A stretch of DNA of 62,771 bases. Origin: Alphaproteobacteria bacterium (lineage in GTDB: Bacteria > Pseudomonadota > Alphaproteobacteria > M2410). The notes below the pieces were generated by a model. The model worked only from the letters and a program-made list of their open reading frames with translations. It was not told the origin of the DNA and searched no databases. The position numbers and the translations under genes were made by a program. Positions 2,548 through 54,221 of the stretch are shown here, one piece after another. Position 1 is the stretch's first letter, and the number at the start of each line of letters is the position of its first letter. The DNA lies in assembly GCA_030614785.1 (NCBI GenBank), contig JAUWTJ010000012.1, forward strand, positions 1 through 62,771. Direction: 5' to 3'.

Positions 2548-2704
2548 AACGCCCTGCCTGGTCATGGCTGCTGGCATGGAAAGATCCCAAAAAAACCTTT
2601 TCAATAAGGCAATAAGCGCATTCGGGTTGCTTGTTATTATCATTCTATATTATTTACTTTTTCTCATATACCTAAACAGTATATTCTGGTCTCTACTGTA
2701 ACAA

Positions 2705-12979: not shown

Positions 12980-12990
12980 ATGTCTCTCCC

Positions 12991-17523: not shown

Positions 17524-17801
17524 TTTAAAATATCCTCCACCGCAAATTTTCACGCAGGAAATTCTCACGCCTGATAGCACGCTAGCAGAGTCTGGCATTT
17601 CGAAATTGACATCGGTCAACGCCAACCGTGTATGCGCCTGACAGCGCGCACCTGATTCACTCTTTTGTGATCTATGAACATGAAACCGACGTGTCTTGCT
17701 AACTTCTCGGTGTTAGGCCGCATGCTGATTGTTGTTTGTTATAATGTTAACTCACAGTACGGACAAATTAGTCGATAGCCTCACCTCAGATCCAATCGAT
17801 A
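17524..17801. other. Intergenic region ahead of alpha2, with inverted repeat
   Basis: No coding sequence seen. This is the promoter region of the alpha2-beta1-TorD-alpha1-downstream operon on the minus strand and the 3' side of the MFS gene. It holds the inverted repeat TTGAC-ATCG-GTCAA at 17606-17619, about 85 bp before the alpha2 start, a plausible operator position. No convincing intrinsic terminator was found after the MFS gene, so read-through from the alpha3 operon is possible. Confidence 0.5.
17606..17619. promoter_or_regulatory. Candidate operator: TTGAC-N4-GTCAA
   Basis: Perfect 5-bp arms separated by 4 bases, upstream of the alpha2 operon. A similar TGAC/GTCA repeat with a 5-base spacer lies before alpha3 at 23303-23317. 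No factor can be named. Confidence 0.35.
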
Positions 17802-20418: not shown

Positions 20419-23256
20419 TTACTCCGCAGCGACACGCTCGGCAGCGGCAAGTTCGAAGTCACACCTGACCCATCGATCAATCGGGACCGGCTGCCACCCG
20501 AGGAAGGAAAAGTTGAGATGACCATAGCCACCGGAAAAACCGCTCCACTTGACCATGCCAGGCTCGATCTCGTTGGCCCCGCTCCAGTCCTTATACTGTA
20601 GAGGCTCCCAGCCATTGTAGGAAATGATCTGGCCCGGCTTGACGTTGGGCGCAACCTTTGCCCGCGAGGAGAACTCACTGACATCGTTGAAGATCCTGAT
20701 CAGATCATCATCCTTGACGCCTCTTGCCTTCGCATCATCAGGATTGATCATCACGTTCGGCGAACCACGGTGCGTCCCGAGCACTGTCTTGTTCATATGG
20801 TTCATGGAGTGGACGGACCAGCGATTGTGACCGGAGGTGAGCCCCATGGGATAGTCGCCGCCCATCGACGGGTTTGGTTTGTGGGTTGGAAGCTGCTCAC
20901 CGGATTCCAGAAACCATTCATGGTCGATGTAGAACTGGGCGCGCCTCGCATAGGCCGGATAGGGATCACCATTTTCCACATGATTACGGAACGGGGTATG
21001 CGGCTTGTTGGTTTCAAAGGGCGAGGCCTGTGTCAAGGCCCCCGGCATCATGCCCCAGTCAATAAAGCGAACAAATCCGGTCTCGCGCAGGGTCTCAAGG
21101 GTCGTGCCTTCCGGCAGTGTCCCGGCCAGCACCGAATCACGCACCTGTTCGTCTGCAACAATTTCCTCGTTGGCATAGTAGCCATTCATAGTGAACTTGC
21201 CGACCAGCTCGTCATACTGATGCATCTTGCCTTCGGGGTCTTCAAACCTCTCCAGGCCTCGTTCCTTTGCGCGGCGCTCAATCGCGCCAAGAAGTTCAGA
21301 AAAGATCAGCCATTCACTCTTTGCTTCCCCGGCTGGTTCAACAACCTTGTCGGCAAGCGTAAGGTTCATCACCTGGGGACCGGTAATGGCGAAGTTGACC
21401 TTCTCGTAGTGTTGTGCCGCAGGAAGGAAGTAGTCTGAATACATCGCCGTAGTCGACAGTCTGAAATCAATGTCGACAATGGTCTTCAGTTTGGGCCACA
21501 AGGTTTCCATGAGGACTTTCTTGCCACCTCTGGAGCGCCGAACCATATTGCCGCCACACTCAATCAAGACCTGGGGAACCTCGTCCTTGCGCGGATGGTC
21601 AAGACCGGCCCACCAGCCCTTCTCGAGGGCTTCATTGAAATATTCATCAAAGGATCTTGGCAGCGATGTGTCACCCCACTCCCGGGTGTTCCACCGTTCG
21701 GCATATTCCGACTGGTAGTACCACCAGAAGGCCGGGACCGAATTTGCGGCCATGGGGGCTTCTTCATTTGAGGGGGGCACAAAGTCACCGAGCAGACCGC
21801 GTGTCCCCTTGGTCAACTCAAGCATGGCCAGCTCCGTTGTCATGGTCGGATCAAGCTGCTTGATAAAATCAACCGCCTCTTCGCGCGAATTCAGAACCTG
21901 TTCCGCGGCCATCAAGCCGGGTTTGTTCTTGCCCATTGCCAGTTGCGATCCGTCCATCAGTGCCGCTGCCCAGCACCGGATACCCGTTCCCTTGCGGCCC
22001 CAGTTTCCGGTCACACCAATGGCCAGACACATCGCGCGTTCGATCAGATCTCCGTGATAAATCTTGCAGGCATTCATACCGTGCATGATGGTGGTACGCT
22101 TGGCCGCCATCTTGCGCGCCAGCAATCGAACCGTGTCCGGGTGAACGCCGGTGATTTCCTGCTGCAGCTCCGGGGTATAGTATTTATCCACGTGTTCGCG
22201 CAGAAGATCGCAGACCGGCCTTACCAGAACTTCCTTTCCATCGGCCAGTGAGACATTGAACGCACCGGAGAGGGCAGCCTTCATACCGTTCAATTTGAGA
22301 TTGCCACGATTGGCCCGCACCGGGCCCTCTGCGGGATCCCATTGGTACAACTGATCCTCGCGGCCTTCCGGGGCCATGTCGATTTCACGCAGGTAACGCC
22401 CGGTATCGGTGCGCACCAGAAGAGAGAGGTCGGTTTGCTCCCTGATGAATTCCCAATCTGCGATATCCTCTTCAAATACGACCTGAACAATGGAAAGTGC
22501 AAACGCGGCGTCGGTCGTGCCGTTGATGGTGATCTGATAGTCCGCATGGGTGTGGGAGGGATTGATATCGGGAGAGATGTTGAAAATTTCAGTGCCGTTG
22601 TAGCGGGCTTCGGAAACGAAATGATAGAACGGTATCCGTGTGAAAACCGGATTGGAATGCCAGAACAGGATGACCTCCGCCAGGAACCAGTCATCCGCCG
22701 AACTTTCGATCTGCATCTTGCCGTAGGTCAGGTATACGCCGGGATTGAAATCTCCGATGGAACCGTTGAGATCCATGGAGAAGCCGCCAAGCGCGTCGAA
22801 GAAACGCGTGGTTGGGCCAACAACGGCCGTTTCCGGCGTCCCATCGCGCACAACAGAGCGCGGCCCATGAACTTCGATCGCATCAAGAATATCATCCGCT
22901 ATTTCGCCGAGAGCCTGATCCCATGAGATTCGCTCCCACTCGCCTGCACCACGCTCGCCAACCCGCTTAAGCGGGTACATGGCCCGATCCGGACCATCGA
23001 GCGACTGGTTCCAGCACGTGCCCTGCATGCAGCCCATTGGATTGTAATCAGGCACACCCGGATCAATAGTCGGCAAAGTCCCTGATGGTTCTTCACGCAC
23101 GATCTTGCCGTCCTTGACAAAGACGCGCATCGGGCAGTTTCCAGGATAACAGTCTGTGCAGTGCGTCCCCCACTTGACTTCATCAAATGTGATATTCTCT
23201 CTGTATCTGTCGTTTGAAGGTGAAGAGGCTGTGCGATCTTTTCTGATTGTTGACAT
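20419..23256 (-). CDS. Type II molybdoenzyme alpha subunit (alpha3), cytoplasmic type, without its own beta gene
   Basis: 945-residue catalytic subunit close to alpha2. Cluster ligands are His32, Cys36, Cys41 and the cysteine of NPMGCMQG (here the usual QKG is MQG); the putative Mo aspartate is in GDFNPGVYLTYG. Start at 23256 is preferred because GGGATCGAG lies just upstream; an in-frame ATG at 23295 has no ribosome binding site. Neither version has a Tat motif. It is followed by two MFS permeases and, unlike the other alphas, has no beta, gamma or chaperone gene in its operon, so it must borrow these from elsewhere or work differently. Confidence 0.9.
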   Translation of the reverse strand: MSTIRKDRTASSPSNDRYRENITFDEVKWGTHCTDCYPGNCPMRVFVKDGKIVREEPSGTLPTIDPGVPDYNPMGCMQGTCWNQSLDGPDRAMYPLKRVGERGAGEWERISWDQALGEIADDILDAIEVHGPRSVVRDGTPETAVVGPTTRFFDALGGFSMDLNGSIGDFNPGVYLTYGKMQIESSADDWFLAEVILFWHSNPVFTRIPFYHFVSEARYNGTEIFNISPDINPSHTHADYQITINGTTDAAFALSIVQVVFEEDIADWEFIREQTDLSLLVRTDTGRYLREIDMAPEGREDQLYQWDPAEGPVRANRGNLKLNGMKAALSGAFNVSLADGKEVLVRPVCDLLREHVDKYYTPELQQEITGVHPDTVRLLARKMAAKRTTIMHGMNACKIYHGDLIERAMCLAIGVTGNWGRKGTGIRCWAAALMDGSQLAMGKNKPGLMAAEQVLNSREEAVDFIKQLDPTMTTELAMLELTKGTRGLLGDFVPPSNEEAPMAANSVPAFWWYYQSEYAERWNTREWGDTSLPRSFDEYFNEALEKGWWAGLDHPRKDEVPQVLIECGGNMVRRSRGGKKVLMETLWPKLKTIVDIDFRLSTTAMYSDYFLPAAQHYEKVNFAITGPQVMNLTLADKVVEPAGEAKSEWLIFSELLGAIERRAKERGLERFEDPEGKMHQYDELVGKFTMNGYYANEEIVADEQVRDSVLAGTLPEGTTLETLRETGFVRFIDWGMMPGALTQASPFETNKPHTPFRNHVENGDPYPAYARRAQFYIDHEWFLESGEQLPTHKPNPSMGGDYPMGLTSGHNRWSVHSMNHMNKTVLGTHRGSPNVMINPDDAKARGVKDDDLIRIFNDVSEFSSRAKVAPNVKPGQIISYNGWEPLQYKDWSGANEIEPGMVKWSGFSGGYGHLNFSFLGWQPVPIDRWVRCDFELAAAERVAAE

Positions 23257-23302
23257 GGTCAATCTCGATCCCTGGCTAAAAAATGATGTTGTCATGAAAA
23301 CG

Positions 23303-23317
23303 CTGACGCTGTGTCAG
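23303..23317. promoter_or_regulatory. Candidate operator: CTGAC-N5-GTCAG
   Basis: Perfect 5-bp inverted arms just upstream of alpha3. The core TGAC/GTCA matches that of the repeat in front of alpha2, though the spacer is one base longer. Confidence 0.35.
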
Positions 23318-26363: not shown

Positions 26364-26392
26364 CTTAAACAATAATCCAGGGAGACAACCCA

Positions 26393-29167
26393 ATGAGCAA
26401 GAATGCAGAAACGGGTACTTATCGCGGTATCGACGATATTTATCGCGAAAACTGGAAATGGGACAAGGTCGCCTGGGCATCGCACTGCATTGATTGCTAT
26501 CCAGGAAATTGCCCCATGCGGGTTTATGTCAAGGACGGCATTGCATGGCGCGAGGAGCCCGCTGCGGTTTTCCCACAAATCGAAAAAGGCGTTCCCGACC
26601 TTAATCCCATGGGGTGCCAGAAAGGCGCCGGATGGACCCGCACCCTCTATGGCAAGGACCGGGTTCTCTATCCTCTGAAGCGCGTCGGCGAACGAGGCGA
26701 GGGAAAGTGGGAACGGGTTTCCTGGGATCAGGCGGCAACCGAGATAGCGGATGCGGTTCTCGATGCCGTGGAAGAAAAAGGGCCTGAGTCGGTCATCGCA
26801 CCGTCGGGGTGCAACATGCATACCTGGGGCCTTTTGGGCCGACCGCTTTACATGGGCGGTATCGGCGGATTGACGATGGACGTCAACGCAGAGATGAACG
26901 ACTTTGCGCCGGGCCACTATTTGACCTACGGGGCGTTCGATCCTGTCTCAAGCATCGACGACTGGTTTCACGCCGGAATTATCCTGATCTGGCATGCCAA
27001 TCCCGTCTATACCAGAATCCCGCATTATCACTTTATTGCCGAGGCACGCTACAAGGGCGCGGAAGTCTACACGATTGCTCCGGACGCCTCCCCGTCCGCA
27101 GTACATGCTGACTATCACTATGGGCTCACGCCAGGAAGCGACGCAGCATTTTCTCTTTCCATGGCGCAGGTTGTGGTCGAGGAAGGTCTTGTCGATGAAA
27201 CATTTGCCAGAGAGCAAACCGACCTACCGCTACTGATGAATCCTGAAACCAAATGCTATCTTCGAGAGTCCGAGATGGAAGATGGTGGCTCGGATGAGCA
27301 GTTCTATGTCTGGGATCTGAAGACAAAAGAAGCCATAAAAGCCCCAAGGGGTACGCTCTTCTGGGGCGATATTGAACCGGCTCTTACAGGAACATTCTCT
27401 GTCACGACCAACTCAGGGACGGTGGAACTCCAGACTGTTCTAACGCAGATGCTTCCCAGGCTGGAAAATTACAAACCGGAACTGGCGACAAAAATTTGCA
27501 ATATTCACCCCGACGCCATTCGGGCTCTGGCGCGCAAGATTGCCTCCCGACGCACCAAAGTCATCTGTTCGCTTTCAAATGCGGGGAAACACTATCACGG
27601 CGATCTCATGGAACGCGCGCAGCTTCTGCTCTTCGGCCTGACAGGTAACTGGGGCAAGCAGGGAACCGGCGTGCAAGCCTGGACCGGTGCGTTCTTTGAT
27701 GGCGCGATGACACTGGTCGCCAAACAATCGAAAGGCCCGGCAGAGCTCGCCATGATGCTCGACATGATTGATGCCGGCAATGCGGAGGCCCGTGCGAAGG
27801 ACCCGACCCTGACCGAAGCAATGATCAAGATTGAGGCGGCCAAGAATTCAGACAATGGCGGAATGGTGCCACCGGTCTTCTTCTGGTATCGCCATGCCGG
27901 GTGCAAGGACAGCTGGCAGAAGAAGGAATGGCATGACCCGTCCATGAAACGGGAGTTTGACGAGTACTTCCAGGAAGCGGTGGAAAAAGACTGGTGGGCG
28001 GGCCAGGACTTTCCACGCGAGGAGCAAACACCACGCGTCCTGATCGAATGCGGTGGCAATGTCCTGAGACGCACCAGGGGCGGCAGCAAGATGCTGCTTG
28101 AGCACTTGTGGCCGGAACTCAACATGATTGTGTCGCTTGATATCCGCATGAGTGCGACCGGGCTGCATTCTGACTTCGTCCTGCCGATTGCCAATCAGTA
28201 TGAAAAAATCGGTTTTGGCATCCCCAGCACTCATACGATGAACCTGACCTTTTGTGATCGGGCCATTGAGCCGCCGGGAGAGGCGGTCAATGAATACGAG
28301 GCCTTCAGGAGACTGTCCGAGAAACTGGAAGAGCGGGCAAAGGCGAGGAATTTCCAGCCCTATACGGACGCCCGGGGCGGCGAGCATAACCTGACCGAGT
28401 GCCACACAAAATTCACCCGGAACGGACAGTTCCTCGATGAGGATATGATGGCCGACGAGATGATCCGGGATACGGCATTCCTGGGTGCCATTCCGTCCAA
28501 CGCCAGCCTCGATGACCTCAGAGAGAAAGGATATTATCGCTGGGAAGGCCTCGGCATTGCGGTTCGGGCTCATTCACAGGCGACAGATCCTGCCCCGGAC
28601 GAGACTTTCGCGCCTTTCCGCAAGCATGTGGAAGGCGGAGAGCCCTGGCCTACTCTGTCGCGCCGGGCACAGTTCCTGATCGAGCACCCGTGGTTCATTG
28701 AAGCGGATGAGCACCTTCCCATTCACAAGGATCCTCCGCAAATCGGCGGCGACTACCCCTTCCAGGTGGCGAGCGGGCATAACCGCTGGAGCATCCACTC
28801 GCTCAACACCGCGAACCATCTGATGTTGGAGACACACAGGGGCGCACCGCACGTCGTGATCAATGATGAAGATGCTGCGCGCCTGAACATTGAGGACAAT
28901 GAAGAAATCCGAATTTTTAATGACCAGGGCGAATATTTCGTTCCTGCCCTGATCTCACCCAGCGCTCAGCCGGGACAGATCGTCATGTATAACGGGTTTG
29001 ACAATTATCAGTTCAAGGACTGGAAAGGTCCCAATGATGCCGAACCGGGGATGGTCAAATGGCTGCACATGGCAGGCGGCTATGGTCATCTCAAATACTA
29101 TTCAATGAACTGGCAGCCCTGCGCGATTATGAGGAACACTCATGTCGGCATCGAAAAGATCAGCTAG
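26393..29167 (+). CDS. Type II molybdoenzyme alpha subunit (alpha4), cytoplasmic type
   Basis: 924-residue catalytic subunit. Cluster ligands are His31, Cys35, Cys40 and Cys75 (NPMGCQKG); the putative Mo-ligand aspartate lies in NDFAPGHYLTYG. The central domain contains SNAGKHYHGDLMERAQ, equivalent to the (C/N)KxYHGDLxERAM segment of the other alphas, and the C-terminal pterin domain is complete. AGGGAG precedes the ATG. There is no signal peptide: the cluster motif begins at residue 31. The beta2 gene follows after 19 bp with a strong AAGGAG. It is in the same subgroup as alpha2 and alpha3. Confidence 0.92.
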   Translation: MSKNAETGTYRGIDDIYRENWKWDKVAWASHCIDCYPGNCPMRVYVKDGIAWREEPAAVFPQIEKGVPDLNPMGCQKGAGWTRTLYGKDRVLYPLKRVGERGEGKWERVSWDQAATEIADAVLDAVEEKGPESVIAPSGCNMHTWGLLGRPLYMGGIGGLTMDVNAEMNDFAPGHYLTYGAFDPVSSIDDWFHAGIILIWHANPVYTRIPHYHFIAEARYKGAEVYTIAPDASPSAVHADYHYGLTPGSDAAFSLSMAQVVVEEGLVDETFAREQTDLPLLMNPETKCYLRESEMEDGGSDEQFYVWDLKTKEAIKAPRGTLFWGDIEPALTGTFSVTTNSGTVELQTVLTQMLPRLENYKPELATKICNIHPDAIRALARKIASRRTKVICSLSNAGKHYHGDLMERAQLLLFGLTGNWGKQGTGVQAWTGAFFDGAMTLVAKQSKGPAELAMMLDMIDAGNAEARAKDPTLTEAMIKIEAAKNSDNGGMVPPVFFWYRHAGCKDSWQKKEWHDPSMKREFDEYFQEAVEKDWWAGQDFPREEQTPRVLIECGGNVLRRTRGGSKMLLEHLWPELNMIVSLDIRMSATGLHSDFVLPIANQYEKIGFGIPSTHTMNLTFCDRAIEPPGEAVNEYEAFRRLSEKLEERAKARNFQPYTDARGGEHNLTECHTKFTRNGQFLDEDMMADEMIRDTAFLGAIPSNASLDDLREKGYYRWEGLGIAVRAHSQATDPAPDETFAPFRKHVEGGEPWPTLSRRAQFLIEHPWFIEADEHLPIHKDPPQIGGDYPFQVASGHNRWSIHSLNTANHLMLETHRGAPHVVINDEDAARLNIEDNEEIRIFNDQGEYFVPALISPSAQPGQIVMYNGFDNYQFKDWKGPNDAEPGMVKWLHMAGGYGHLKYYSMNWQPCAIMRNTHVGIEKIS

Positions 29168-39563: not shown

Positions 39564-42464
39564 TCATGCCTCCTTCACTTTTTCAATATCGACACGAATA
39601 GCCCGATCACTGGTTGGGTTGGGACTACCTGTTGATGAGTGAAAGCGACACTGGGTGTAGTTCATGGCCAGCTGGGTAGGCTTCGGCAGTCCAATGGTCA
39701 TCACATCATGGGATTTCCAGTCCTTGAACTGATAGGGCTCCCACATATAGGTAACCACCTGATCCTTGCCGACGGCTGCAGACAGAGAAACCATCAGCTC
39801 GGACTCGTCGTAGTCATTGAACATGCGCACCTGATCCCCGTCCGCTATGCCTTTTTCTCTGGCAACCTGATCATTGAGAAAAACCACTGGCTGTCCGCGG
39901 TGCAATTTCATGAAGTGAGGATTGGCCAGATGCAGCGTATGCACAGAGATCCGCGGATGCCCGCCGACGAGCCGGAACGGGTGATCCCCCCCGATGGGCG
40001 GGGTGTCTTTATGGACCGGCAGGGCTTCTCCGGCTTCGATGAACCATTCGTGATCCATGTAGAACTGCGCCCGGCGCGTATGCGTTGGATAGGGCAGTTT
40101 TTTATCGACATGCCAGCCAAGCGCATAGTTTGGCTTATCTGTGTGCCAGTCACTTGCACCGGTATGGCGTTGCAAGCCATCCCCAAGAGAGGTAATGCGA
40201 ACCTGCCCTTCCTCCTCAAATTTCTCCAACGTGTAATCAGGCGGGAAGAGACCTGTTGCAGCATTGTAGGCAACAAATTCACGCACTACATCTTCATTGT
40301 CGTTCAGCTCACCATCAAGGGTGAAGCGGCGCTGCAGATCACTGTAGAGTCTGGGAACACCCGCACGGTCAACAAATTGTGTCATGCCGCGCTGCGCGGC
40401 CCGCTCGGCTATCTTGCCCATAAGGTCCCGGTAGATCTCCCATTCGGAAAGCGCTTCCCCTGGTGGATCAACGGCCTTTTGCTGCATCGACTGATAGGGA
40501 TAGTGGGCAAAGACCATGGTGGTATCGGCCTTCTCGTAGTACCAGGCAGCGGGCAGCAAAATATCGGAAAAGGCAGCTGAGGAGGACATTCTCGTCTCAA
40601 TCGTGAAGATCATCTTCGCCTTGGGCCACAGCTCTTCAAGATACATCCTTGCGCCGCTGCGCTGACGACGCATAGGGTTGTGGCACTGATACATGAGCAC
40701 CTGGGGCTGGGCCGCCGGATCGCATTTGTAGATCGGGTCGATGTAACCTTTTTCCAGTCCCTCACTCAGATACTCACCGAATGTTTTGGACAAGGCAGGA
40801 TCCTGCCACTCCTTTTTATCCCAGAGTTTCTTGTAGCCGGCATATTGATACATCCAGATCGCAGGCGGAACCGAGCCTGATTTTCGCTGTGACATGACCG
40901 CCAGCGCCAGATGCACATCTTCTTCAGAGGCATCGGGGTCCTGTGACTTCACCATGTGAGTCACCTGCTGCAGGATCTGTTCTCTTTCAGCCTGAGATCC
41001 CTGGGCAATTGTCTTGTCTGTGCCGCCGACATGCCCCACATGATCAATCATCATCAAAAAGTTGTTGAAACCCGTGCCCGGCTTGCCCCAGTTGCCACTC
41101 AGACCAAGAACGAGGATGGCCGCGCGCTCCATCAGATCGCCGTGATAGCTCTTGGCAGAGGAGAAGCCGTTATAAAAATGCGTGCGTTTGGTCGCAATTT
41201 TGCGGGCCAGTTCTCGAATAAGCTTCGGCGTGACGCCGCACTTCGGACTGGCCTTCTCCGGCGTATAGTTGGCGCCCAGCTCTCTTTTCAGTTTTCTGAA
41301 AACGGTCTCGACCTGGGTCGTGGACCCGTCTTTCAACGGCACCCGCAAATCAGCGTCCAACTCTGCCTGACCATCGTATTTGAGTTTGTCCCGCGGCGCT
41401 TCGGCAACTTCTTCAAGGCCTGAATCATAGAAATAGAACTGATCCGGTCTCCCGCCGTCGACCTCCTGGGCGGACAGAAATTTACCATTGTCCCGGCGCA
41501 CCAGAATTGGCAGGTCTGTCTGTTCCAGAACGAAGTCCGGATGATAGATCTCCTCGTCGATCATGACCTGGGCAACGGACAGCCACAAAGCAGCATCCGA
41601 TGCCGGCAACACGGGGACATGGATATCCGCATGGATTGTCGATGGATTATAGTCAGGGTTCACCAACACCACTTCAGATCCATTGTAGCGAGCCTCGGTA
41701 ATGAAGTGATACATGGGAGGCGCAGTGTAGGACCAGTTGGTGTTGGAGAAGATCAGCACTTCGGCATCAAACATGTTGTCCGATGTCATACCCATACGCA
41801 TCTTGCCGAAAACCTGGGCAACGCCCTTCAGGTCATCCCCGATCGCAACATTTGTATCGGGACTTATAGCGCCGAGTTGGTTGCCAAACCGTCCGGCACC
41901 CGCTGTCGCAACAGAACCGGCGTGCAAATGTGGTGCATCAATGTGAAAACCGGCACTGCCGATCTCCTCGTGAGCATCAAGGATGGCGTCGGCCACTTCG
42001 CTCAACGCTTGGTCCCAGGAAATACGTTGCCATTTACCCTCGCCGCGCTCACCGGCTCTCTTCATCGGGTAACGTAATCGCTCTTCGCTGTAGAGAAGAT
42101 TATGAAACGCGCAGCCTTTCTGACAACCCATGGGATTATAGTCGGGATACGCCTCATTGGATGCGTCAGATCGCGCATTTTGCTCCTCGCGCCATACAAC
42201 ACCGTTTCGAGTGTAGACGCGAAAAGAACAGGCGGCCGGAAGACACTGATTATTGTGTGAGCCCCAACTGACCTTATCCCACTGCCACTCTTTGGCGTAG
42301 ATGTCTTCCCTGGAGCTGTAGTCGATATTGGCCTTGCCGCTGACAAGGTTTGAGATGAAGGACGGCGAGGCACATCCACTCAGGCTCGTCAGTGATAAAC
42401 CGGCGGCCCCGCCACTCAACTTGAGAAAGTCCCTGCGGGGTAACGTTGCAGTCTCTTTTGCCAT
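39564..42464 (-). CDS. Tat-exported type II molybdoenzyme alpha subunit (alpha5), possible lipoprotein
   Basis: 966-residue catalytic subunit, the only alpha here with an export signal: RRDFLKLSGGAAGLSL starts at residue 10. It is followed by LSGC (Cys31), which fits a lipobox, so the mature protein may be membrane-anchored through a lipidated cysteine. Cluster ligands are His70, Cys74, Cys79 and Cys114 (NPMGCQKG); the putative Mo aspartate is in GDDLKGVAQVFG. Start at 42464 has GGAGGC 7 bases upstream; a longer frame adds 58 unrelated residues running through the operator region. It heads the alpha-beta-gamma-chaperone operon, the layout of ethylbenzene, p-cymene, steroid C25 and dimethylsulfide dehydrogenases. 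It is the most divergent of the five paralogues. Confidence 0.93.
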   Translation of the reverse strand: MAKETATLPRRDFLKLSGGAAGLSLTSLSGCASPSFISNLVSGKANIDYSSREDIYAKEWQWDKVSWGSHNNQCLPAACSFRVYTRNGVVWREEQNARSDASNEAYPDYNPMGCQKGCAFHNLLYSEERLRYPMKRAGERGEGKWQRISWDQALSEVADAILDAHEEIGSAGFHIDAPHLHAGSVATAGAGRFGNQLGAISPDTNVAIGDDLKGVAQVFGKMRMGMTSDNMFDAEVLIFSNTNWSYTAPPMYHFITEARYNGSEVVLVNPDYNPSTIHADIHVPVLPASDAALWLSVAQVMIDEEIYHPDFVLEQTDLPILVRRDNGKFLSAQEVDGGRPDQFYFYDSGLEEVAEAPRDKLKYDGQAELDADLRVPLKDGSTTQVETVFRKLKRELGANYTPEKASPKCGVTPKLIRELARKIATKRTHFYNGFSSAKSYHGDLMERAAILVLGLSGNWGKPGTGFNNFLMMIDHVGHVGGTDKTIAQGSQAEREQILQQVTHMVKSQDPDASEEDVHLALAVMSQRKSGSVPPAIWMYQYAGYKKLWDKKEWQDPALSKTFGEYLSEGLEKGYIDPIYKCDPAAQPQVLMYQCHNPMRRQRSGARMYLEELWPKAKMIFTIETRMSSSAAFSDILLPAAWYYEKADTTMVFAHYPYQSMQQKAVDPPGEALSEWEIYRDLMGKIAERAAQRGMTQFVDRAGVPRLYSDLQRRFTLDGELNDNEDVVREFVAYNAATGLFPPDYTLEKFEEEGQVRITSLGDGLQRHTGASDWHTDKPNYALGWHVDKKLPYPTHTRRAQFYMDHEWFIEAGEALPVHKDTPPIGGDHPFRLVGGHPRISVHTLHLANPHFMKLHRGQPVVFLNDQVAREKGIADGDQVRMFNDYDESELMVSLSAAVGKDQVVTYMWEPYQFKDWKSHDVMTIGLPKPTQLAMNYTQCRFHSSTGSPNPTSDRAIRVDIEKVKEA

Positions 42465-42526
42465 TACATTGCCTCCTTGATGGATCTGCACTTGTAATTT
42501 CGAGAGTTTTTGAGAATGCCACGCAT

Positions 42527-42552
42527 TCTTATTGATAAAACTATCAATAAGA
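42527..42552. promoter_or_regulatory. Palindromic operator, 11-bp arms, ahead of alpha5
   Basis: TCTTATTGATA and its exact complement TATCAATAAGA are separated by AAAC. The palindrome lies at the expected transcription start, about 65-90 bp upstream of the alpha5 ATG. It contains the same TATTGAT half-site as the two sites at 42562 and 44771. The gap between TTGAT and ATCAA is 6, so it is not an FNR box (which has 4). Confidence 0.6.
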
Positions 42553-42561
42553 GAATGAGCG

Positions 42562-42582
42562 CTATTGATAGCCTTGTCAATC
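42562..42582 (-). promoter_or_regulatory. Shared operator/promoter element upstream of alpha5
   Basis: Matches CTATTGATRGYCTTGTCAAT, the same sequence found between acyl-CoA dehydrogenase and tetR. On the minus strand it includes a perfect -35 TTGACA, with a poor -10 (CATTCT) 17 bases on. Half-sites TATTGA and TCAAT are inverted with an 8-base spacer, a normal geometry for a TetR-family dimer. Confidence 0.65.
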
Positions 42583-42680
42583 CTGGATCTGATGGAGTGT
42601 GACGGCGGATACCGCAAAATCCCGCTGCAAGAGCTCACAGATTTTCGAAGACGATCACTTTGTCCATGACCCGGGCGTTC

Positions 42681-46217: not shown

Positions 46218-46392
46218 GAGACAACGTCTCTGACGACAGGGAGGGTCTTCGCATCTCCTCTCTGGAATGCGTTTAAGTCCGAATACACCGTATGCAGATT
46301 GCGTCAAGATGTCTTTCCCGGCACTCTTGCATTGGTCTAATTCCGCCGATACGCTTCATGAGACAAGCATTCTTGCTGAAGTGGTTCTAGCG

Positions 46393-47304
46393 ATGAATAA
46401 AGTCGGCAAAAACTGTAAAACCAATCGGAACGGGGCATCCGACGGATCCCCGGGTGGACTGGAACTGACCGGGGGCAATTGTGGAATCGTCGCCCGCGAG
46501 GATTTTTCTGATGTTACGTTCCTGCTGGAATTCCATCATCCAATGATGGCGAGGGCCGCCAGGCCCGGACAATTCGTCATCGTCATTGCGCACGAGGACG
46601 GCGAACGGATCCCGTTGACCATCGCAGATTTTGATGCCGACAAGGGAACCGTCACTCTTGTTATCCAGGCTGTCGGCAAAACCACACGCCAGATGCAAGA
46701 GATCTGTCAGGTCGGAACAAAGATCCACAGCGTTGTCGGACCAATGGGCGTGCCAAGCAACACCAAAGGCCCCAAAAAAGTGATATGCGTCGGCGGAGGC
46801 TTGGGTGTTGCCCCGGTTTATCCGCAAGCGCGGGCTTTTAAGGAAAACGGCGCCTATGTCATCGGCGTCATCGGCTTCAGATCGAAAGAACTGATGTTCT
46901 GGGAAGATAAATTCAAGGCTGTCTGCGACGAGTTCATCGTTTGCACAGACGATGGGTCAGAAGGCATCAAAGGGCGCGTGACCGACGGCATAGAATTAGC
47001 ACTGAAAGGTCACGATGATATTGATGAGCTTGTCGCCATTGGCCCGCCAATTATGATGCAAGCTTCTGTCGAAACGACCAGACCTCACAACATCAAATCA
47101 ACTGTCTCTCTCAATCCAATCATGGTGGACGGAACGGGCATGTGCGGTGGTTGCCGCGTGATGGTCGGCAATGAATTGAAATTTGCTTGCGTTGATGGAC
47201 CGGACTTTGACGGCCATCAGGTTGATTTTTCCGACCTGATGAATCGGCTGGCCCGCTTTAGGCCCGATGAAAAAAAGGCTGTCGAAAACTGGGAGGGCGG
47301 CTGA
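46393..47304 (+). CDS. nfnA: NfnA-type small subunit of ferredoxin:NADP+ oxidoreductase
   Basis: Small subunit of the electron-bifurcating NADH-dependent ferredoxin:NADP+ oxidoreductase (also annotated as sulfide dehydrogenase beta). An FAD-binding barrel holds RIPLTIAD, the nucleotide domain holds GGGLGVAPVYPQ, and the C-terminal [2Fe-2S] site is MCGGCRVMV plus FACVDGPDFDG. The ATG at 46393 gives 303 residues; the frame extends back to 46267, adding 42 residues with no family similarity, and neither start has a clear ribosome binding site, though GAAGTGG lies upstream. The N-terminal MNKVGKNCKTNRNGASDG stretch is longer than usual. The large subunit follows after 26 bp. Confidence 0.85.
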   Translation: MNKVGKNCKTNRNGASDGSPGGLELTGGNCGIVAREDFSDVTFLLEFHHPMMARAARPGQFVIVIAHEDGERIPLTIADFDADKGTVTLVIQAVGKTTRQMQEICQVGTKIHSVVGPMGVPSNTKGPKKVICVGGGLGVAPVYPQARAFKENGAYVIGVIGFRSKELMFWEDKFKAVCDEFIVCTDDGSEGIKGRVTDGIELALKGHDDIDELVAIGPPIMMQASVETTRPHNIKSTVSLNPIMVDGTGMCGGCRVMVGNELKFACVDGPDFDGHQVDFSDLMNRLARFRPDEKKAVENWEGG

Positions 47305-47330: not shown

Positions 47331-48833
47331 ATGGCTAAAAAAACGATCAGGACCATTCCCCAGGACAGGACACCCATTCCCGAGCAAGCCCCGGAGGTTC
47401 GTGCGAAGAACTTCGATGAGGTCACGCTCGGCTATGAGGTGGAACAAGCTTTAAACGAAAGCATGCGCTGCCTTCTCTGCCCGGAGCCGGCCTGTGTGCC
47501 TGCCTGCCCTGTCTCCATCGATATCCCCGGTTTCATTGAGAAGATATCCAACAAGGATTACCGCGGCGCTTACGACACGATCAGCCAGAACAGTCTTCTT
47601 CCAGCCATTTGTGGACGCGTCTGCCCACAGGAAGACCAATGCGAAATGGTTTGTCCGGTCGGCGAAACGCTTGAACCGGTGGCCATCGGTCGTCTGGAGC
47701 GGTGGATCGGCGATCTCGCCATAAAAGAAGGCTGGGCCTCGATACCTTACAGCAAACCCAATACCTTCAAGATTGGCGTGGTTGGCTCCGGACCCGCAGG
47801 CATGGCCTGCGCCGCAGACATGGCGAAGGCCGGATGTGATGTCACGATCTTTGAAGCCCTCCACAAGCCGGGCGGTGTCCTGCGCTACGGAATTCCGGAA
47901 TTCCGTCTTCCCAATAGTGTGGTCGATACCGAACTTGAAAACCTTGCCAAACTCGGCGTGAAGATTGAATGCAATGTTCTGATCGGGCGCCTCTTTACCA
48001 TCGAGGACATGCTTGAGGAAATGGGGTTCGACGCTGTCTTTGTCGGCACCGGTGCCGGCGCACCAAAATTCATGGGCATTCCGGGCGAAACTCTGAACGG
48101 TGTTCTTTCTGCCAACGAGCTTCTGACCCGCTGCAACCTCATGGGTGCGGGAGATTTTCCCAGGCACGATACCCCAATGCACCTCGGCAAACGGATTTCT
48201 GTGATTGGATCCGGTAACACGGCAATGGACGCCATGCGCGTCTGCCTCAGACTGGGTGCGGAAAACGTGACCTGCGTTTACAGGCGCACAGAGGCCGAAA
48301 GCCCGGCACGACTTGAAGAACTACATCATGCCAATGAAGAAGGCATTGAATTTCACTGGCTGACAACCCCGATTGAGATTCTCGACGATGGCGAGGGCAA
48401 TGTTCGGGCCATGCGCTGCCTCGAAATGGAACTCGGGGAACCCGACGACTCAGGGCGGCGCAGGCCGATCCCCGTTGAAGGCAGCGAGTTTGAACTTGAA
48501 ACCGACATGGTGATCTACGCCATCGGGACAAACCCGAACCCGATCATTGGACAGACCTCCAAGCTTAAACTCAATCAATGGGGTTACATTGAGGTCGATG
48601 AGAACATGGCCGGATCAATTGCAGGCGTTTATGCGGGCGGAGACATCGTCACCGGCGCGGCGACGGTCATACTGGCCATGGGAGCCGGGCGCGACGCGGC
48701 CAGGTCCATGAAGGCCTATCTTGGAATTCGGGATTCTGAACGAGCCTGTCAGATACAGGATGACGGACCGATGAACCGACTATTTGGAATTGATATTGAA
48801 GAAAGGAATTTCGCTCGCATCCGGATAGCTTGA
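47331..48833 (+). CDS. nfnB: NfnB-type large subunit (GltD-like FAD/NADPH oxidoreductase)
   Basis: 500-residue large subunit of the NfnAB complex, related to the glutamate synthase small subunit. The N-terminal iron-sulfur domain shows CLLCPEPACVPACPVSIDIP and CGRVCPQEDQCEMVC. Two Rossmann motifs follow: GVVGSGPAGMACAADMAKAG for FAD (~145) and ISVIGSGNTAMDAM for NADPH (~288). The C-terminal GVYAGGDIVTGAATVILAMGAGR is the FAD-contacting segment of the family. Pairing with NfnA excludes plain glutamate synthase, whose large subunit is absent. The enzyme couples ferredoxin, NADH and NADP+ in the cytoplasm. Confidence 0.9.
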   Translation: MAKKTIRTIPQDRTPIPEQAPEVRAKNFDEVTLGYEVEQALNESMRCLLCPEPACVPACPVSIDIPGFIEKISNKDYRGAYDTISQNSLLPAICGRVCPQEDQCEMVCPVGETLEPVAIGRLERWIGDLAIKEGWASIPYSKPNTFKIGVVGSGPAGMACAADMAKAGCDVTIFEALHKPGGVLRYGIPEFRLPNSVVDTELENLAKLGVKIECNVLIGRLFTIEDMLEEMGFDAVFVGTGAGAPKFMGIPGETLNGVLSANELLTRCNLMGAGDFPRHDTPMHLGKRISVIGSGNTAMDAMRVCLRLGAENVTCVYRRTEAESPARLEELHHANEEGIEFHWLTTPIEILDDGEGNVRAMRCLEMELGEPDDSGRRRPIPVEGSEFELETDMVIYAIGTNPNPIIGQTSKLKLNQWGYIEVDENMAGSIAGVYAGGDIVTGAATVILAMGAGRDAARSMKAYLGIRDSERACQIQDDGPMNRLFGIDIEERNFARIRIA

Positions 48834-48870: not shown

Positions 48871-50826
48871 GTGCTGGAGCGGTCGACTAATTGGACAGGA
48901 ATGGACACTGTGGACAAAGGTGACTGGATGCTCAAGGAGAGGGACGTAGAAGATACAGCGCCCTCTGGCGATAGTATCGTGCGGCTCGACGAGCACATAA
49001 TAGAGATCCTCAGCGATTCTGGTGAAGGCGCACAGAAGTGTGCGCAGTCACTGGCTGCCATTGCCGCCAGGATGGGCAACGGCGTTTGGACCACGGAGAT
49101 TATTCCAGCCGAAATCCAGCCGCCCGCCAGAAGCATCGAAGGCGCCAGTGGCAATCGCATCCGCCTTGCCACCCATGCTATCTCCAATGGAGGGGATCTG
49201 ACAGACCTCGTAGTCGCCTTTAACGAACAGGTTCTGATCGGCCGCGTGCGCACCGGCGAGCTCAAACCAAATTGCACCATTATCCTTGAGGACAAGTGGC
49301 GTCACGACAGGGATCCATCGATCGTGGCCTCGTATATCAAGGAGTACGATGAACTCATAAGGGACGGCTACAACGTCTACGAAGTTTCGATGGAGGAAGA
49401 ATGCCTCAAACTTGTTCCGGACCCGCGCAAGGGAAAGAACATGTTTGTGCTGGGTATGCTGTGCGGCATTTATAATCTCGACCTGCAAAGGGCACGGGAC
49501 CAGATTGCGTTTATCTTCGCGAAGAAGAGCGCTGCTGTTATTGACTCAAATGTCAATCTTCTGCTGGCCGGCCATGCCTGGGCTCACGCACACCTCGACT
49601 TCCAATACGAAATCCCGGCGACAAAACCGACCGAACCCATGGTCGTCATCAATGGAAACACGGCCATCGCACTCGGAACATTGGCATCAGGCATGCAGAT
49701 TTGTTCGATGTATCCCATCACACCGGCCACATCGGTCTCACATTATCTCAGTGATGTCTTTCAGAAGGTTGGTGGCCATGTTCACCAGGCTGAGGACGAA
49801 ATTGCCGCATGCGCCTTTGCCATTGGATCCTCCTACTCAGGCAGCGTTGCACTGACCGTGACGTCGGGGCCCGGTTATTCCCTCAAACAAGAGACTATTG
49901 GTCTTGCCGTCATGGCGGAGATCCCGCTGGTTGTCGTCAATGTCCAGCGTGGCGGACCAAGTACCGGGCAGCCCACCAAGGTGGAACAGGGTGACCTTCT
50001 GACAGCCTGCTTTGGCAGCCACGGGGACGCACCGAAGGTCGTCATGGCACCGTCCAGTATCGAGGACTGTTTCTACATGATGATTACGGCACGCAAGATT
50101 GCCGAAGCCTTCAATATGGTCGTCGTAGTTCTGACTGACGCCTCTCTTGCAACGGCCCAGCAGCCCATTCCACGACCGTCCTTTTCCAAAGACTGGCTTG
50201 CGCCGCCGATTGATCAGTCACCGGTCGCCGAAGGCACCAACCCCTACGAATGGGACAAACGTACCGGCCTCTCCCGACGCATCATTCCCGGCCAGCCCGG
50301 CGGAATGCACTGCCTGACCGGCCTTGCGCACGACGAGAAAAGCTGCGTTGCCTACGATGCCACGGTCAATCAAAAAGGCATTAAGTCCCGCAGCCTGAAA
50401 CTTGCAACACTGCAGAAGTCACTCGCGCCTGTGGAACTTTACGGGGGCGACGAAGGGGATCTTTTGATCGTCGGCTGGGGCAGCACCAGAGGCGCCATCG
50501 AGGAAACCGTCGACCGGATGCGCGACACGGGTCACAAGGTTTCCTCATTGCATCTGAGATTCATCCAGCCGATGCCGCCCGGTATCAAAGACGCCCTGAA
50601 ACGCTTCGACCAGGTGATCACCGTTGAAAACAGCTGGAGCGACCAGCCGGACGGCGACATCATAGATGATGACAACATGCGCTATTCCAATCTCGCTTTT
50701 ATGCTGCGCGCCCGTTTTCTGGTCGATATTGCGTGTTGTAGCGAAGTTATGGGCCGTCCGATCAGCCCATCAACAATTGAAACGTTTGTCACAAATAAAC
50801 TTGCCGACAAACCCGTGGGGAAATGA
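48871..50826 (+). CDS. korA: 2-oxoacid:ferredoxin oxidoreductase, fused gamma-alpha subunit (KorA type)
   Basis: About 651 residues. The N-terminal gamma domain (~40-230) is followed by the alpha domain starting around 255 with SMYPITPATSVSHYL, the pyrimidine-binding region. TSGPGYSLKQETIGLAVMAEIP and RGGPSTGQPTKVEQGDL are conserved in KorA proteins. Such gamma-alpha fusions with a separate beta subunit oxidise 2-oxoglutarate (or branched oxoacids) and reduce ferredoxin; in Thauera and Magnetospirillum they supply reduced ferredoxin for aromatic-ring reduction. The start is uncertain: GTG at 48871, ATG at 48901, or ATG at 48928, the last with AAGGTG close upstream. It overlaps korB by 4 bp. 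Confidence 0.88.
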   Translation: MLERSTNWTGMDTVDKGDWMLKERDVEDTAPSGDSIVRLDEHIIEILSDSGEGAQKCAQSLAAIAARMGNGVWTTEIIPAEIQPPARSIEGASGNRIRLATHAISNGGDLTDLVVAFNEQVLIGRVRTGELKPNCTIILEDKWRHDRDPSIVASYIKEYDELIRDGYNVYEVSMEEECLKLVPDPRKGKNMFVLGMLCGIYNLDLQRARDQIAFIFAKKSAAVIDSNVNLLLAGHAWAHAHLDFQYEIPATKPTEPMVVINGNTAIALGTLASGMQICSMYPITPATSVSHYLSDVFQKVGGHVHQAEDEIAACAFAIGSSYSGSVALTVTSGPGYSLKQETIGLAVMAEIPLVVVNVQRGGPSTGQPTKVEQGDLLTACFGSHGDAPKVVMAPSSIEDCFYMMITARKIAEAFNMVVVVLTDASLATAQQPIPRPSFSKDWLAPPIDQSPVAEGTNPYEWDKRTGLSRRIIPGQPGGMHCLTGLAHDEKSCVAYDATVNQKGIKSRSLKLATLQKSLAPVELYGGDEGDLLIVGWGSTRGAIEETVDRMRDTGHKVSSLHLRFIQPMPPGIKDALKRFDQVITVENSWSDQPDGDIIDDDNMRYSNLAFMLRARFLVDIACCSEVMGRPISPSTIETFVTNKLADKPVGK

Positions 50827-51800
50827 TGGTCACAACATATTCATCTGTAACCGAACGCCTGCTTCAATCGACCGAAGAGCACCACAAGATTGATGACTTC
50901 AAGCGTCATATCCCGCGGTGGTGCACGGGTTGCGGCAACGGCGGCATTCTGACGGCGATGCAAAAACTGTGTCGCGACGAAAACCTGCCACGCGAAAATA
51001 CCGTTTTTGTATCCGGCATCGGCTGCTCAAGCCGATTTCCTCATTATATGAACGCCTACGGATTTCACGGTCTGCACGGCAGGGCCCTGCCCGTCGCCGA
51101 AGGCATCAAGATGGCGCGTCCTGACCTGCATGTCTTTGTCAACACCGGCGACGGCGACTGCTGCAGTATCGGCGCGGCTCACTGGATCCACGCCATTCGC
51201 TACAATATGGACATGACGGTCATCCTGCATGACAATAATATTTACGGTCTGACCAAGAACCAGGCCTCGCCAACGTCGCCAATCGGCCTGTCGACCAACA
51301 CGACCCCGCGCGGTTCCATTCTCGAACCGCTCAATCCGCTGCTGGTAACACTCGGCATCCAGAACGCATCCTTCGTTGCCCAGACCGTCGACTGGATTCC
51401 CGAGCTGATGTACGATATTCTGTCGAAGGCCTATCACCATAAGGGACTTTCTTTTATCCGCGTTTTGCAGCGCTGTCCCGAGTTTGTGCCTGACATGTTC
51501 CAGGCATGGATGGATGAGCCCGTCACAACGCGGCTGCTGACCCACGAAAACGGCCTCTCGGTTTCTCCGGCACTGTCGCGCACCTACACCAACCAGGAAG
51601 TCCACGATCCGTCCAACATGGACCGGGCCCGTGAAATTGCATCGCTCAAGGATCAGGTTCCTGTCGGTATCCTTTACCGAAACGATGAAATTCCTTGCTA
51701 CGAAGACGTTCGCGAACCCGACCGGCTACAAACATCCGGCGGCGTGCGGGATGTCCTGGAGGCCGAGTTCGATAACTTTACAATCTGGCCTGAGAACTGA
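50823..51800 (+). CDS. korB: 2-oxoacid:ferredoxin oxidoreductase beta subunit (KorB type)
   Basis: 325-residue thiamine-diphosphate and [4Fe-4S] subunit. Cluster cysteines are visible in WCTGCGNGG and GIGCSSRFP, with a further conserved one near CPEFVPDMF. The TPP/Mg motif is GDGDCCSIGAAHWIHAIRYN, ending DNNIYGLTKNQASPTSP. Its first ATG overlaps the korA stop codon, so the subunits are made together. The acceptor is ferredoxin, possibly the ferredoxin domain at the end of the next gene, 51 bp downstream. Length and motifs match KorB of 2-oxoglutarate oxidoreductases more than pyruvate enzymes, but substrate cannot be proved. Confidence 0.9.
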   Translation: MMVTTYSSVTERLLQSTEEHHKIDDFKRHIPRWCTGCGNGGILTAMQKLCRDENLPRENTVFVSGIGCSSRFPHYMNAYGFHGLHGRALPVAEGIKMARPDLHVFVNTGDGDCCSIGAAHWIHAIRYNMDMTVILHDNNIYGLTKNQASPTSPIGLSTNTTPRGSILEPLNPLLVTLGIQNASFVAQTVDWIPELMYDILSKAYHHKGLSFIRVLQRCPEFVPDMFQAWMDEPVTTRLLTHENGLSVSPALSRTYTNQEVHDPSNMDRAREIASLKDQVPVGILYRNDEIPCYEDVREPDRLQTSGGVRDVLEAEFDNFTIWPEN

Positions 51801-51851: not shown

Positions 51852-54221
51852 ATGAGTACGAATACGCAGGATCTGGTCGCTTTTCGCCTGACGGGCAAAC
51901 GCCCGGCTCAAGACAGCGACGACGCAAGCGCAGTCGTGGCAAACTCAGCCGACAGTTCCGGCCTCTGCCCTGTCCTCTTTGCAGGCTACTCTGATCTAAC
52001 GTCTCTGAGATATGACTTCCCGGTGATACTCATCAACGGACCTCATCACTCAGCCCCGATGCGCAGTCTTACAAGTATCATGAATGATATCATCGATAGC
52101 CTGGCGCCAAAGGGGAGTGAGGGTGAATTTGACAGAAAGCAGCTCCTGGAACTTGAACGCCAAATCCGCTCGTATGCGGCCAGTGGCGACAAGGGGACCC
52201 TGTCGAAGTTCTGGAAAAAGGCACAGGCGGACCTCATTCGCGGAACGACAAGCAGTGAACGTAAGGCCTTGAAGGCATGCCTCGATCAGGCGCGCACTCT
52301 TGTTGACGTTGATGGTGAGGTCATCGACTGCAATGAATATACCTGTTCGAAAATCACGGAACATCTCTGGGATTTCGAAGTCACCGCGAAAGCAATCCGG
52401 TTCCGGAAACGCGTCGGTGCCCTGATACTCCGGTTGGAAAGAATTCTTGAGGCCGATTTTCAAATCTCAGGCGACGCACAGGATCCTGCGAATCTCAAGG
52501 GGGCCGTTGGCGACGCGCTTGCTTCATCGTTTGACTTCAAAGCCCTGTCGGACCTCTTAAAAGGCTCTGATACCCACGATGTGCTGCCGGTAACACGAAA
52601 AGAACGCATCGAAAATTCTCTCAAGGCGTTAAAGCAACAGCGCTTCTTTGCCACGTCCTATCTCGACACCGACGAGAGAGCAGCTGACGAAGCTGGCTTG
52701 AAGGTTCATAAATATATATTCAACACCTGCACCAAAGCCCATGATGCCTTCCTTGACCGCCTGCCGGAAATGGTCGAACTCATCAAGGCGATCGCAATAG
52801 CCGAACTTGAGATCGTCAATGGATATAAAGACGGCTTCGATGATGACTTTTTTCTGGGATTTGATCAGACATCCCTGATGCCCGAGGATCTCGAACTGTT
52901 CCCGTCTTATCTCGCTGTTTGCTGCGGGCAACCGTGGAGTACCACTGAAAAGGGCCGGATCATCGAAACGCTGTCATCCGGACTTCCTATAAAGATAATG
53001 GTGCAAACTGACGATATTCTTCCACCCTCTTCTTTCGGAGCCGGACCTTTTTCCTGGGGTCTGAGCGGCGCGCAACTCGCGGGCCTGGCGGTCGGTCTGG
53101 GCAGCGCGTTCGTTCTTCAAAGCACCGCGTCCAATCTCTATCAATTGCGAAGTGAGCTTCAGGCCGGCCTCGCCGCTCCAGGCTCTGCACTGTTCAGTCT
53201 CTTTTCAGGGGCCGGTGCTCAGACGAGCGAAAAACAGCTGGCTGGAACAAATCGAAATGGAAGCTATATTACCGCCGCCGCCGCGATGGAAGCGCGAGCC
53301 TTTCCCACCTTCGTTTTCAACCATGAAGCAGGCAGCGATCTTGCCGCCCGCTTTTCCCTCCTCAACAATCCACACTCCCGCAGCGACTGGACATCATATT
53401 CGCTCGACTGTGAAGATGATGACCTCCAGAGAACAACACTGGACTTCGCATTCACGATCGCTGACTTCATGGCGACGGATGAACGTTACCGCAATCACTT
53501 TGTGAAGGTGGTCAAGTCCGATTGGGTTTCTGACATGGTTTCGGTCGGGGAGTATCTTGCCACGTCCTCGGGCGATATGTCTGACAAGATACCCTACGTT
53601 CTGATGATCAATGAAGCAGGCGAAGCCTCCCGCTATGTCGTCGATGATACAGTAATTCGGGCGACCAAACGCGCGCGCGACATCTGGCACGACCTCCAGG
53701 AACTCGGCGGCATCAACAATTCTCATGCGAGAAAACGCCTCGAAGAAGAGTATGAAGTCTGGGAAGCAAAGAAGCAGGACGAACTGGAAAGTCTGCGAGT
53801 GGAAATGGCGGCTGCCGCCCCGGTCTCGGTGCAGGATGTGAATGCCCCGTCAGCTATGAGCGAAACTCTGGCCCCTGCTGTGCGCCAGGCAACTGACGCA
53901 GATGCGGGAACTGCGATGCCTCCCCCCCAGGGTGCGGAACTGAAGGAAACGGCGCCCGAACCGCAGGTCCAAAACGATGATCCGTGGATCGAGACCGTCA
54001 GATGCACAACCTGTAATGAATGCACCGATCTCAATAATCAGATTTTTGCCTATGACGACAACATGCAGGCTTATGTTGCTAATCCCGACGGAGGCCCCTT
54101 CAGGGACATTGTTGTAGCGGCGGAAAACTGCCAGGTCGCGATCATCCATCCGGGCAAGCCGAGGAATTCGAACGAACCGGGTCTGCCGGACCTGATCAAA
54201 CGTGCTGAGCTTTTTATGTAA
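51852..54221 (+). CDS. Degenerate PFOR thiamine-domain-like protein with C-terminal [4Fe-4S] ferredoxin
   Basis: 789 residues, no signal or clear membrane helix. The last ~75 residues are a single-cluster ferredoxin: CTTCNEC gives Cys718, Cys721 and Cys724, and AENCQVAIIHPGKP gives Cys760. Residues ~365-560 look like the C-terminal part of the pyruvate:ferredoxin oxidoreductase thiamine domain: LSSGLPIKIMVQTDD, GSAFVLQSTASNLYQLRSEL, PGSALFSLFSG and AMEARAFPTFVFNHEAGSD occur in the same order as their counterparts in PFOR. The GDG...N cofactor motif is absent, so it should not bind thiamine diphosphate in the usual way. The first ~350 residues are helical and unrecognised. A linker of Ala/Pro/Glu precedes the ferredoxin. 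It probably docks to or accepts electrons from KorAB. Confidence 0.7.
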   Translation: MSTNTQDLVAFRLTGKRPAQDSDDASAVVANSADSSGLCPVLFAGYSDLTSLRYDFPVILINGPHHSAPMRSLTSIMNDIIDSLAPKGSEGEFDRKQLLELERQIRSYAASGDKGTLSKFWKKAQADLIRGTTSSERKALKACLDQARTLVDVDGEVIDCNEYTCSKITEHLWDFEVTAKAIRFRKRVGALILRLERILEADFQISGDAQDPANLKGAVGDALASSFDFKALSDLLKGSDTHDVLPVTRKERIENSLKALKQQRFFATSYLDTDERAADEAGLKVHKYIFNTCTKAHDAFLDRLPEMVELIKAIAIAELEIVNGYKDGFDDDFFLGFDQTSLMPEDLELFPSYLAVCCGQPWSTTEKGRIIETLSSGLPIKIMVQTDDILPPSSFGAGPFSWGLSGAQLAGLAVGLGSAFVLQSTASNLYQLRSELQAGLAAPGSALFSLFSGAGAQTSEKQLAGTNRNGSYITAAAAMEARAFPTFVFNHEAGSDLAARFSLLNNPHSRSDWTSYSLDCEDDDLQRTTLDFAFTIADFMATDERYRNHFVKVVKSDWVSDMVSVGEYLATSSGDMSDKIPYVLMINEAGEASRYVVDDTVIRATKRARDIWHDLQELGGINNSHARKRLEEEYEVWEAKKQDELESLRVEMAAAAPVSVQDVNAPSAMSETLAPAVRQATDADAGTAMPPPQGAELKETAPEPQVQNDDPWIETVRCTTCNECTDLNNQIFAYDDNMQAYVANPDGGPFRDIVVAAENCQVAIIHPGKPRNSNEPGLPDLIKRAELFM

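Follow-up and report, generated by a model that had tools for sequence, protein, structure and literature searches.

Two-subunit 2-oxoacid oxidoreductases such as StOFOR of Sulfolobus (PMC5020499) and OGOR of Magnetococcus (PDB 6n2n) do not contain domain V, and their sole cluster lies near the surface of a large pocket that has been proposed to accept an external ferredoxin (PMC5020499). StOFOR uses free ferredoxin (PMC5020499), whereas the operon described here encodes, next to a KorA/KorB pair of the same KorAB two-subunit type, a third and apparently dedicated subunit, P0001. The single-chain pyruvate:ferredoxin oxidoreductases (PFORs) of Desulfovibrio africanus and Moorella thermoacetica (TIGR02176) have the fold and order of domains V and VI in common with P0001. 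However, P0001 is without domains I-IV, the thiamine motif and the proximal and domain-V cluster motifs, and it adds a C-terminal single-cluster ferredoxin. A long PFOR form (~1,650 residues) that ends in a Fer4_13 domain is collinear with P0001 over its C-terminal half, extension and tail included, but it is intact where the motifs of P0001 are not. The PorD/OorD (delta) subunits are ferredoxin-bearing accessory subunits of 2-oxoacid oxidoreductases, as P0001 is likely to be. They are dicluster ferredoxins of ~80-100 residues, whereas in P0001 a PFOR-derived body bears a single cluster motif, and the dicluster model TIGR02179 gave no match in P0001 or its family. The NADH-dependent phenylglyoxylate dehydrogenase (PadEFGHI) is a 2-oxoacid oxidoreductase wired to an NAD+-reducing flavoprotein, as is proposed here for the P0001 system, and we know of no dead PFOR subunit in it. 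No description of a P0001-type subunit was found in the literature, which was searched in open-licence PMC papers only.

The window, that is, the whole stretch of DNA analysed (62,771 nucleotides), contains the P0001 gene as the last member of a tight same-strand run, nfnA-nfnB-korA-korB-P0001, with gaps of 26, 37, -4 and 51 bp (Table 1); the korB start and the korA stop overlap by 4 bp. The gene is a real open reading frame with an ATG start and is present in one copy in its own genome. Its position directly after korAB and nfnAB, claimed in the first-pass annotation, was confirmed by the Pfam and NCBIfam matches of the neighbours. The first ~70 codons of the nfnA frame (46267-46480) had no match in the family model, and the true start is probably downstream of the annotated one. 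The YPITP motif of KorA is intact at residue 281, and the KorB alignment has all of the cluster cysteines (CTGCG, GCSSR, QRCP) and GDGD. As far as their sequences tell, KorA and KorB are an intact two-subunit 2-oxoacid oxidoreductase of the KorAB type.

Table 1. Features of the five-gene run and of the P0001 chain, in window coordinates.
Feature	Coordinates	Strand	Evidence
nfnA (NfnA/NfnS-like FAD/NAD-binding, [2Fe-2S] subunit)	46267..47304	+	NCBIfam PRK06222 E 4.6e-110 from residue 74; Pfam DHODB_Fe-S_bind
nfnB (NfnB/NfnL-like, GltA-type FAD, Fer4_20)	47331..48833	+	TIGR01316 E 1.6e-176; Pfam Fer4_20, Pyr_redox_2
korA, gamma-alpha fused 2-oxoacid:acceptor oxidoreductase subunit	48871..50826	+	TIGR03710 E 1.1e-150, above cut-off
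korB, intact TPP subunit	50823..51800	+	TIGR02177 E 4e-76; alignment
Pseudo-PFOR-ferredoxin subunit P0001, 789 aa	51852..54221	+	Profile-profile comparison; PDB-sequence profile search; model fold match
Degenerate PFOR domain V and start of domain VI, residues ~38-330	51963..52841	+	hhalign to L040 long PFOR; motif table
Degenerate PFOR domain VI (thiamine domain), residues ~331-500	52842..53351	+	Motif table; family profile vs PDB; model fold match
Extension collinear with long PFORs, ending in a long helix, residues ~501-655	53352..53816	+	hhalign; AF2 model
Linker, predicted disordered, variable in length and sequence, residues ~656-707	53817..53972	+	pLDDT < 50 at 660-707
Single-cluster ferredoxin domain, residues 708-789	53973..54218	+	Fer4_13; conservation; 1fxr Z 8.1

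Elsewhere the window encodes five large molybdopterin oxidoreductases and one pyruvate-formate-lyase-like glycyl-radical enzyme (10214-13039, 14731-17712, 20422-23313 and 39567-42680 on the minus strand; 2702-5077 and 26369-29164 on the plus strand). Four of the molybdopterin oxidoreductases were identified by Pfam, and that at 20422-23313 by its visible likeness to 14731-17712. This set of enzymes suggests the anaerobic degradation of an unusual substrate. Two neighbouring transporter-like genes (17802-19085 and 19082-20410, minus strand) that overlap and closely resemble each other lie between two of the molybdopterin enzyme genes, an apparent tandem duplication.

The NCBIfam search of P0001 gave no matches and the Pfam search gave Fer4_13 alone, and no model in either library covers the P0001 family as a whole, Fer4_13 being the only match. 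In profile-profile comparison, residues 9-789 aligned with the C-terminal half of intact long PFORs (E 3.7e-70), and the same comparison with more members gave E 2e-107. The long PFORs are single-chain proteins of about 1,630-1,720 residues with a C-terminal ferredoxin of the P0001 kind. They carry YPITP, GDG, SNTGGQ and all cluster motifs, and they are more distant relatives of P0001, presumed to represent its parental type. A profile of the P0001 family that contained no intact PFOR was searched against PDB sequences and matched domain VI of the Moorella PFOR (6cin 980-1110, E 3.3e-5) as well as ferredoxin I (E 1.2e-7). Thus, the PFOR relation of P0001 is independent of the long PFORs. An AF2 model of P0001 from 28 sequences (pLDDT 81, pTM 0.73) matched the PFOR 6cin with Z 16.1 (269 residues, 5.5 A, model residues 56-620) and the PFOR 7plm with Z 15.9 (235 residues, 3.2 A). 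Since the input alignment contained intact PFORs, which favours a PFOR fold, this match of a predicted structure is supporting rather than independent. With 6 sequences, an earlier model reached only pLDDT 56 and pTM 0.43, had no PDB match and was set aside. Chance is untenable as an explanation of P0001, given the full-length relatives, 24-47% identical, that are spread over many genera.

By sequence and by predicted fold, then, P0001 qualifies as a relative of PFOR domains V-VI. The first-pass annotation had recognized a remnant of the PFOR thiamine domain at residues ~365-560 and would have been refuted had profile searches or a structure prediction of P0001 alone revealed no relation to domain VI, or had homologues possessed the complete thiamine motif. 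The first outcome was not obtained, and the complete motif was seen only outside the clade, in the more distant, intact long PFORs. The relation held, but its extent was too narrow, as the whole C-terminal half is represented, and the first ~350 residues, described as unassigned, are a degenerate domain V and the N-terminal part of domain VI.

Motif columns were read in 20 members of the P0001 family and in 7 intact long PFORs. Both domain-V CxxCxxCxxxCP [4Fe-4S] motifs were absent from all 20 members. Among the proximal [4Fe-4S] ligands of domain VI, CLGC had given way to VIDC or a similar sequence, and neither of the remaining two ligands was left, the GCTS region being deleted or changed and C..EHG lost. 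At the thiamine/Mg site, both GDGAMFDIGF and DTQVYSNTGGQ of intact PFORs were replaced: other residues occupy the GDG positions, and SNTGGQ was found neither in P0001 nor in any relative of its clade. The GDG...N signature had been called missing from the letters alone, and rightly so; the complete thiamine motif was present in no member of the clade and only in the distant intact long PFORs. The GDG of the relatives in L038, L079 and L081 was treated as chance, as SNTGGQ is lacking in all three; that of L038 is also offset by about four residues from the PFOR motif. Judged by its motifs, P0001 is not a catalytic PFOR, since three defining catalytic features were tested and none was met. A piece of a split, working PFOR was also considered. 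The missing N-terminal half was sought elsewhere in the same genome, where only P0001 itself and a weak match to KorA were returned, and a split enzyme was ruled out in this assembly.

The C-terminal domain has kept what the body has lost. The ferredoxin contains CTTCNEC (C718, C721, C724), a fourth cysteine at C760 and a conserved HPGxP tail, and P0001 itself has Q, not P, after the fourth cysteine. Fer4_13 matched residues 715-766 at E 3.4e-4, slightly under Pfam's gathering score, and matched 18 of the 20 family members; the low score and the Q of P0001 itself speak against a role as electron carrier. All four cysteines were retained in every member that is complete at the C-terminus (18/18). 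The modelled domain (residues 708-770) matched Desulfovibrio ferredoxin I (1fxr) with Z 8.1 over 63 residues at 2.8 A. P0001 has both the CxxCxxC...C ligands and the predicted ferredoxin I fold expected of a single-cluster [4Fe-4S] ferredoxin, and the one-cluster domain was correctly described as intact at the outset. The distance from LQExxG to the first cysteine, which spans the linker, is 50-130 residues in 17 of 18 members, the value for the remaining one (L081) being a pattern misfire. One relative (L073:8137-11067), encoded in an nfnA-nfnB-korA-korB operon, has three tandem ferredoxin domains with Ala/Pro-rich linkers, which fits an electron-carrying tail.

Relatives of P0001 (~740-980 residues) were found in 8 genomes of Alphaproteobacteria, including its own, and in roughly a dozen genomes of a second class in the phylum, probably Gammaproteobacteria, an assignment that is unverified. 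The family forms one clade with 100/100 support, apart from the intact PFORs. Whole-gene dN/dS was 0.10-0.23 for unsaturated pairs, and the family is under purifying selection. Residues of the body outside the cofactor motifs are invariant or nearly so (e.g., P57, R106, E320, Y325, R482 and W513). Assembly damage or decay of P0001 was rejected, as several genomes have the gene without interruption and selection on it is purifying. In an otherwise single-contig genome, korA and a P0001 relative are broken over several frames (L083:8649-14042), which reflects either sequencing error or a decaying operon.

The gene neighbourhood is also conserved. In every alphaproteobacterial locus with enough contig, the order and strand of nfnA-nfnB-korA-korB-X, where X is the P0001-type gene, were kept. 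Both X and KorB were searched for in 416 distinct genomes. The P0001-type KorB subfamily was present in 8 of 8 genomes with X and in none of the 408 others. The KorB of the 8 genomes was the query or was 63-68% identical to it, and other KorB-like matches reached at most 51% identity, over the core only. The p-value for this co-occurrence, 4.8e-17, ignores shared ancestry and is not a true probability. Operon linkage alone would also give co-inheritance of KorB and P0001.

P0001 is most likely a dedicated, tethered electron carrier of the intact KorAB. As one joint explanation, we consider it probable, with room left for doubt, that P0001 descends from the C-terminal half of a ferredoxin-ended long PFOR, has lost catalysis and acts as a pseudoenzyme docking subunit whose tethered ferredoxin serves transfer from KorAB to Nfn (or Rnf); there is no model of the complex and no biochemistry. 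The docking is inferred, and the inference is strengthened by the perfect co-inheritance with one KorB subfamily. The PFOR-like core (~38-655), having no thiamine or cluster motif, would serve for docking to KorAB and perhaps also to NfnAB. Along the inferred route, the ferredoxin on its flexible linker would take up electrons at KorB, whose only [4Fe-4S] cluster is exposed, and deliver them to NfnB or, in the Rnf-type clusters described below, to RnfB/RnfC instead. The lack of domain V and the large pocket for an external ferredoxin in KorAB-type enzymes were counted in favor of this delivery role. The five-gene operon would then encode a self-contained 2-oxoacid:NAD(P)+ oxidoreductase that could run in either direction, independent of the free ferredoxin pool; direction and substrate are both inferred, with 2-oxoglutarate and pyruvate as candidates. 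Bifurcation by this Nfn is undecided, as bifurcation is not readable from sequence (PMC6405883). The data support the suggestion that a PFOR remnant with a ferredoxin beside korAB and nfnAB is probably a purpose-built electron carrier or scaffold.

Other roles for P0001 were weighed against this one. The dead domain VI could stand in as an inactive beta partner of KorA. The resulting asymmetric enzyme, KorA2-KorB-P0001, would have one half limited to conducting electrons or to regulation. Domains I, II and VI make the dimer core in this oxidoreductase family (PMC5020499), and the fold of domain VI is predicted to be retained in P0001; with KorB encoded in the same operon, however, we regard this arrangement as unlikely. 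It is also improbable that P0001 works apart from KorAB, as a free-standing, general ferredoxin carrier with a large PFOR-derived body that serves the cell's other reductases. Its complete ferredoxin domain would allow this, and several molybdopterin enzymes and a glycyl-radical enzyme are encoded in the same window, but a general carrier does not fit strict co-inheritance with one KorB subfamily and a gene order fixed over 8 genomes. The view that the PFOR-derived body is merely vestigial and that nothing but the ferredoxin domain matters can scarcely be maintained, even with the cofactor motifs gone, against the whole-gene dN/dS and the conserved body residues given above.

In the other class, the P0001-type subunit occurs in korA-korB-X-rnfB-Q-...-rnfC-rnfD clusters. 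Some of these clusters add sucC and sucD (succinyl-CoA ligase), a NuoF-like and an FAD_binding_2 protein, or an aldehyde ferredoxin oxidoreductase. Q is a second dead PFOR, nearly full-length at 1,143-1,603 residues, with neither YPITP nor SNTGGQ. It has both domain-V cluster motifs and no ferredoxin tail, aligns with almost the entire length of the long PFOR (E 4e-205) and forms a clade separate from the P0001 family. The gene was found at L072:9663-14297, L074:9196-13071 and L080:2144-6868 and in seven more loci (L075-L078, L081-L083); rnfB immediately precedes it, and in L072, L074 and L080 rnfC lies downstream. Intact long PFORs are also present in Rnf clusters (L084:4979-13667, L008:4101-11434 and L007:4190-10585), where they adjoin rnfC and rnfD in L084 and L008 and rnfC in L007; the order in L084 is rnfB-PFOR-rnfC-rnfD. 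No description of an intact, ferredoxin-ended PFOR within Rnf clusters was found in the literature. A related long PFOR form adjoins a fused Nfn in L042 and L045. Because intact long PFORs lie beside Rnf or Nfn, we infer that the dead forms apparently descend from a PFOR that was linked to one or the other beforehand. In L007, a 341-residue Gemmatirosa protein without a ferredoxin is encoded between KorB and an RnfB-like gene (2183-3208). It may be a further reduced form of dead PFOR, but the evidence for another dead domain VI is weak (hhalign E 3e-4 with one profile, no HMMER match) and it was not accepted as such.

Only tentatively, and short of even odds, do we propose that KorAB-Nfn/Rnf complexes hard-wired through one or two dead PFOR chains are a widespread, undescribed class. 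The two types would divide the electron path of the original enzyme between them, the P0001 type keeping the terminal ferredoxin and the type of 1,143-1,603 residues the domain-V cluster relay. Electrons from 2-oxoacids would then need no free ferredoxin to reach NAD(P)+ or the ion pump.

P0001 is likely to be an accessory subunit that brings a ferredoxin to a 2-oxoacid oxidoreductase and is built from a dead relative of such enzymes, its association with KorAB and electron transfer being inferred from the operon and co-inheritance only. This reading accounts for a protein that is covered in family libraries by a 52-residue ferredoxin match alone, and it makes a testable prediction of which ferredoxin serves these KorAB enzymes. 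If it is true, P0001 is a pseudoenzyme turned electron-transfer subunit of a related enzyme family, and it would show how a 2-oxoacid oxidoreductase can be connected directly to Nfn, for the formation of NAD(P)H, or to the ion pump Rnf.
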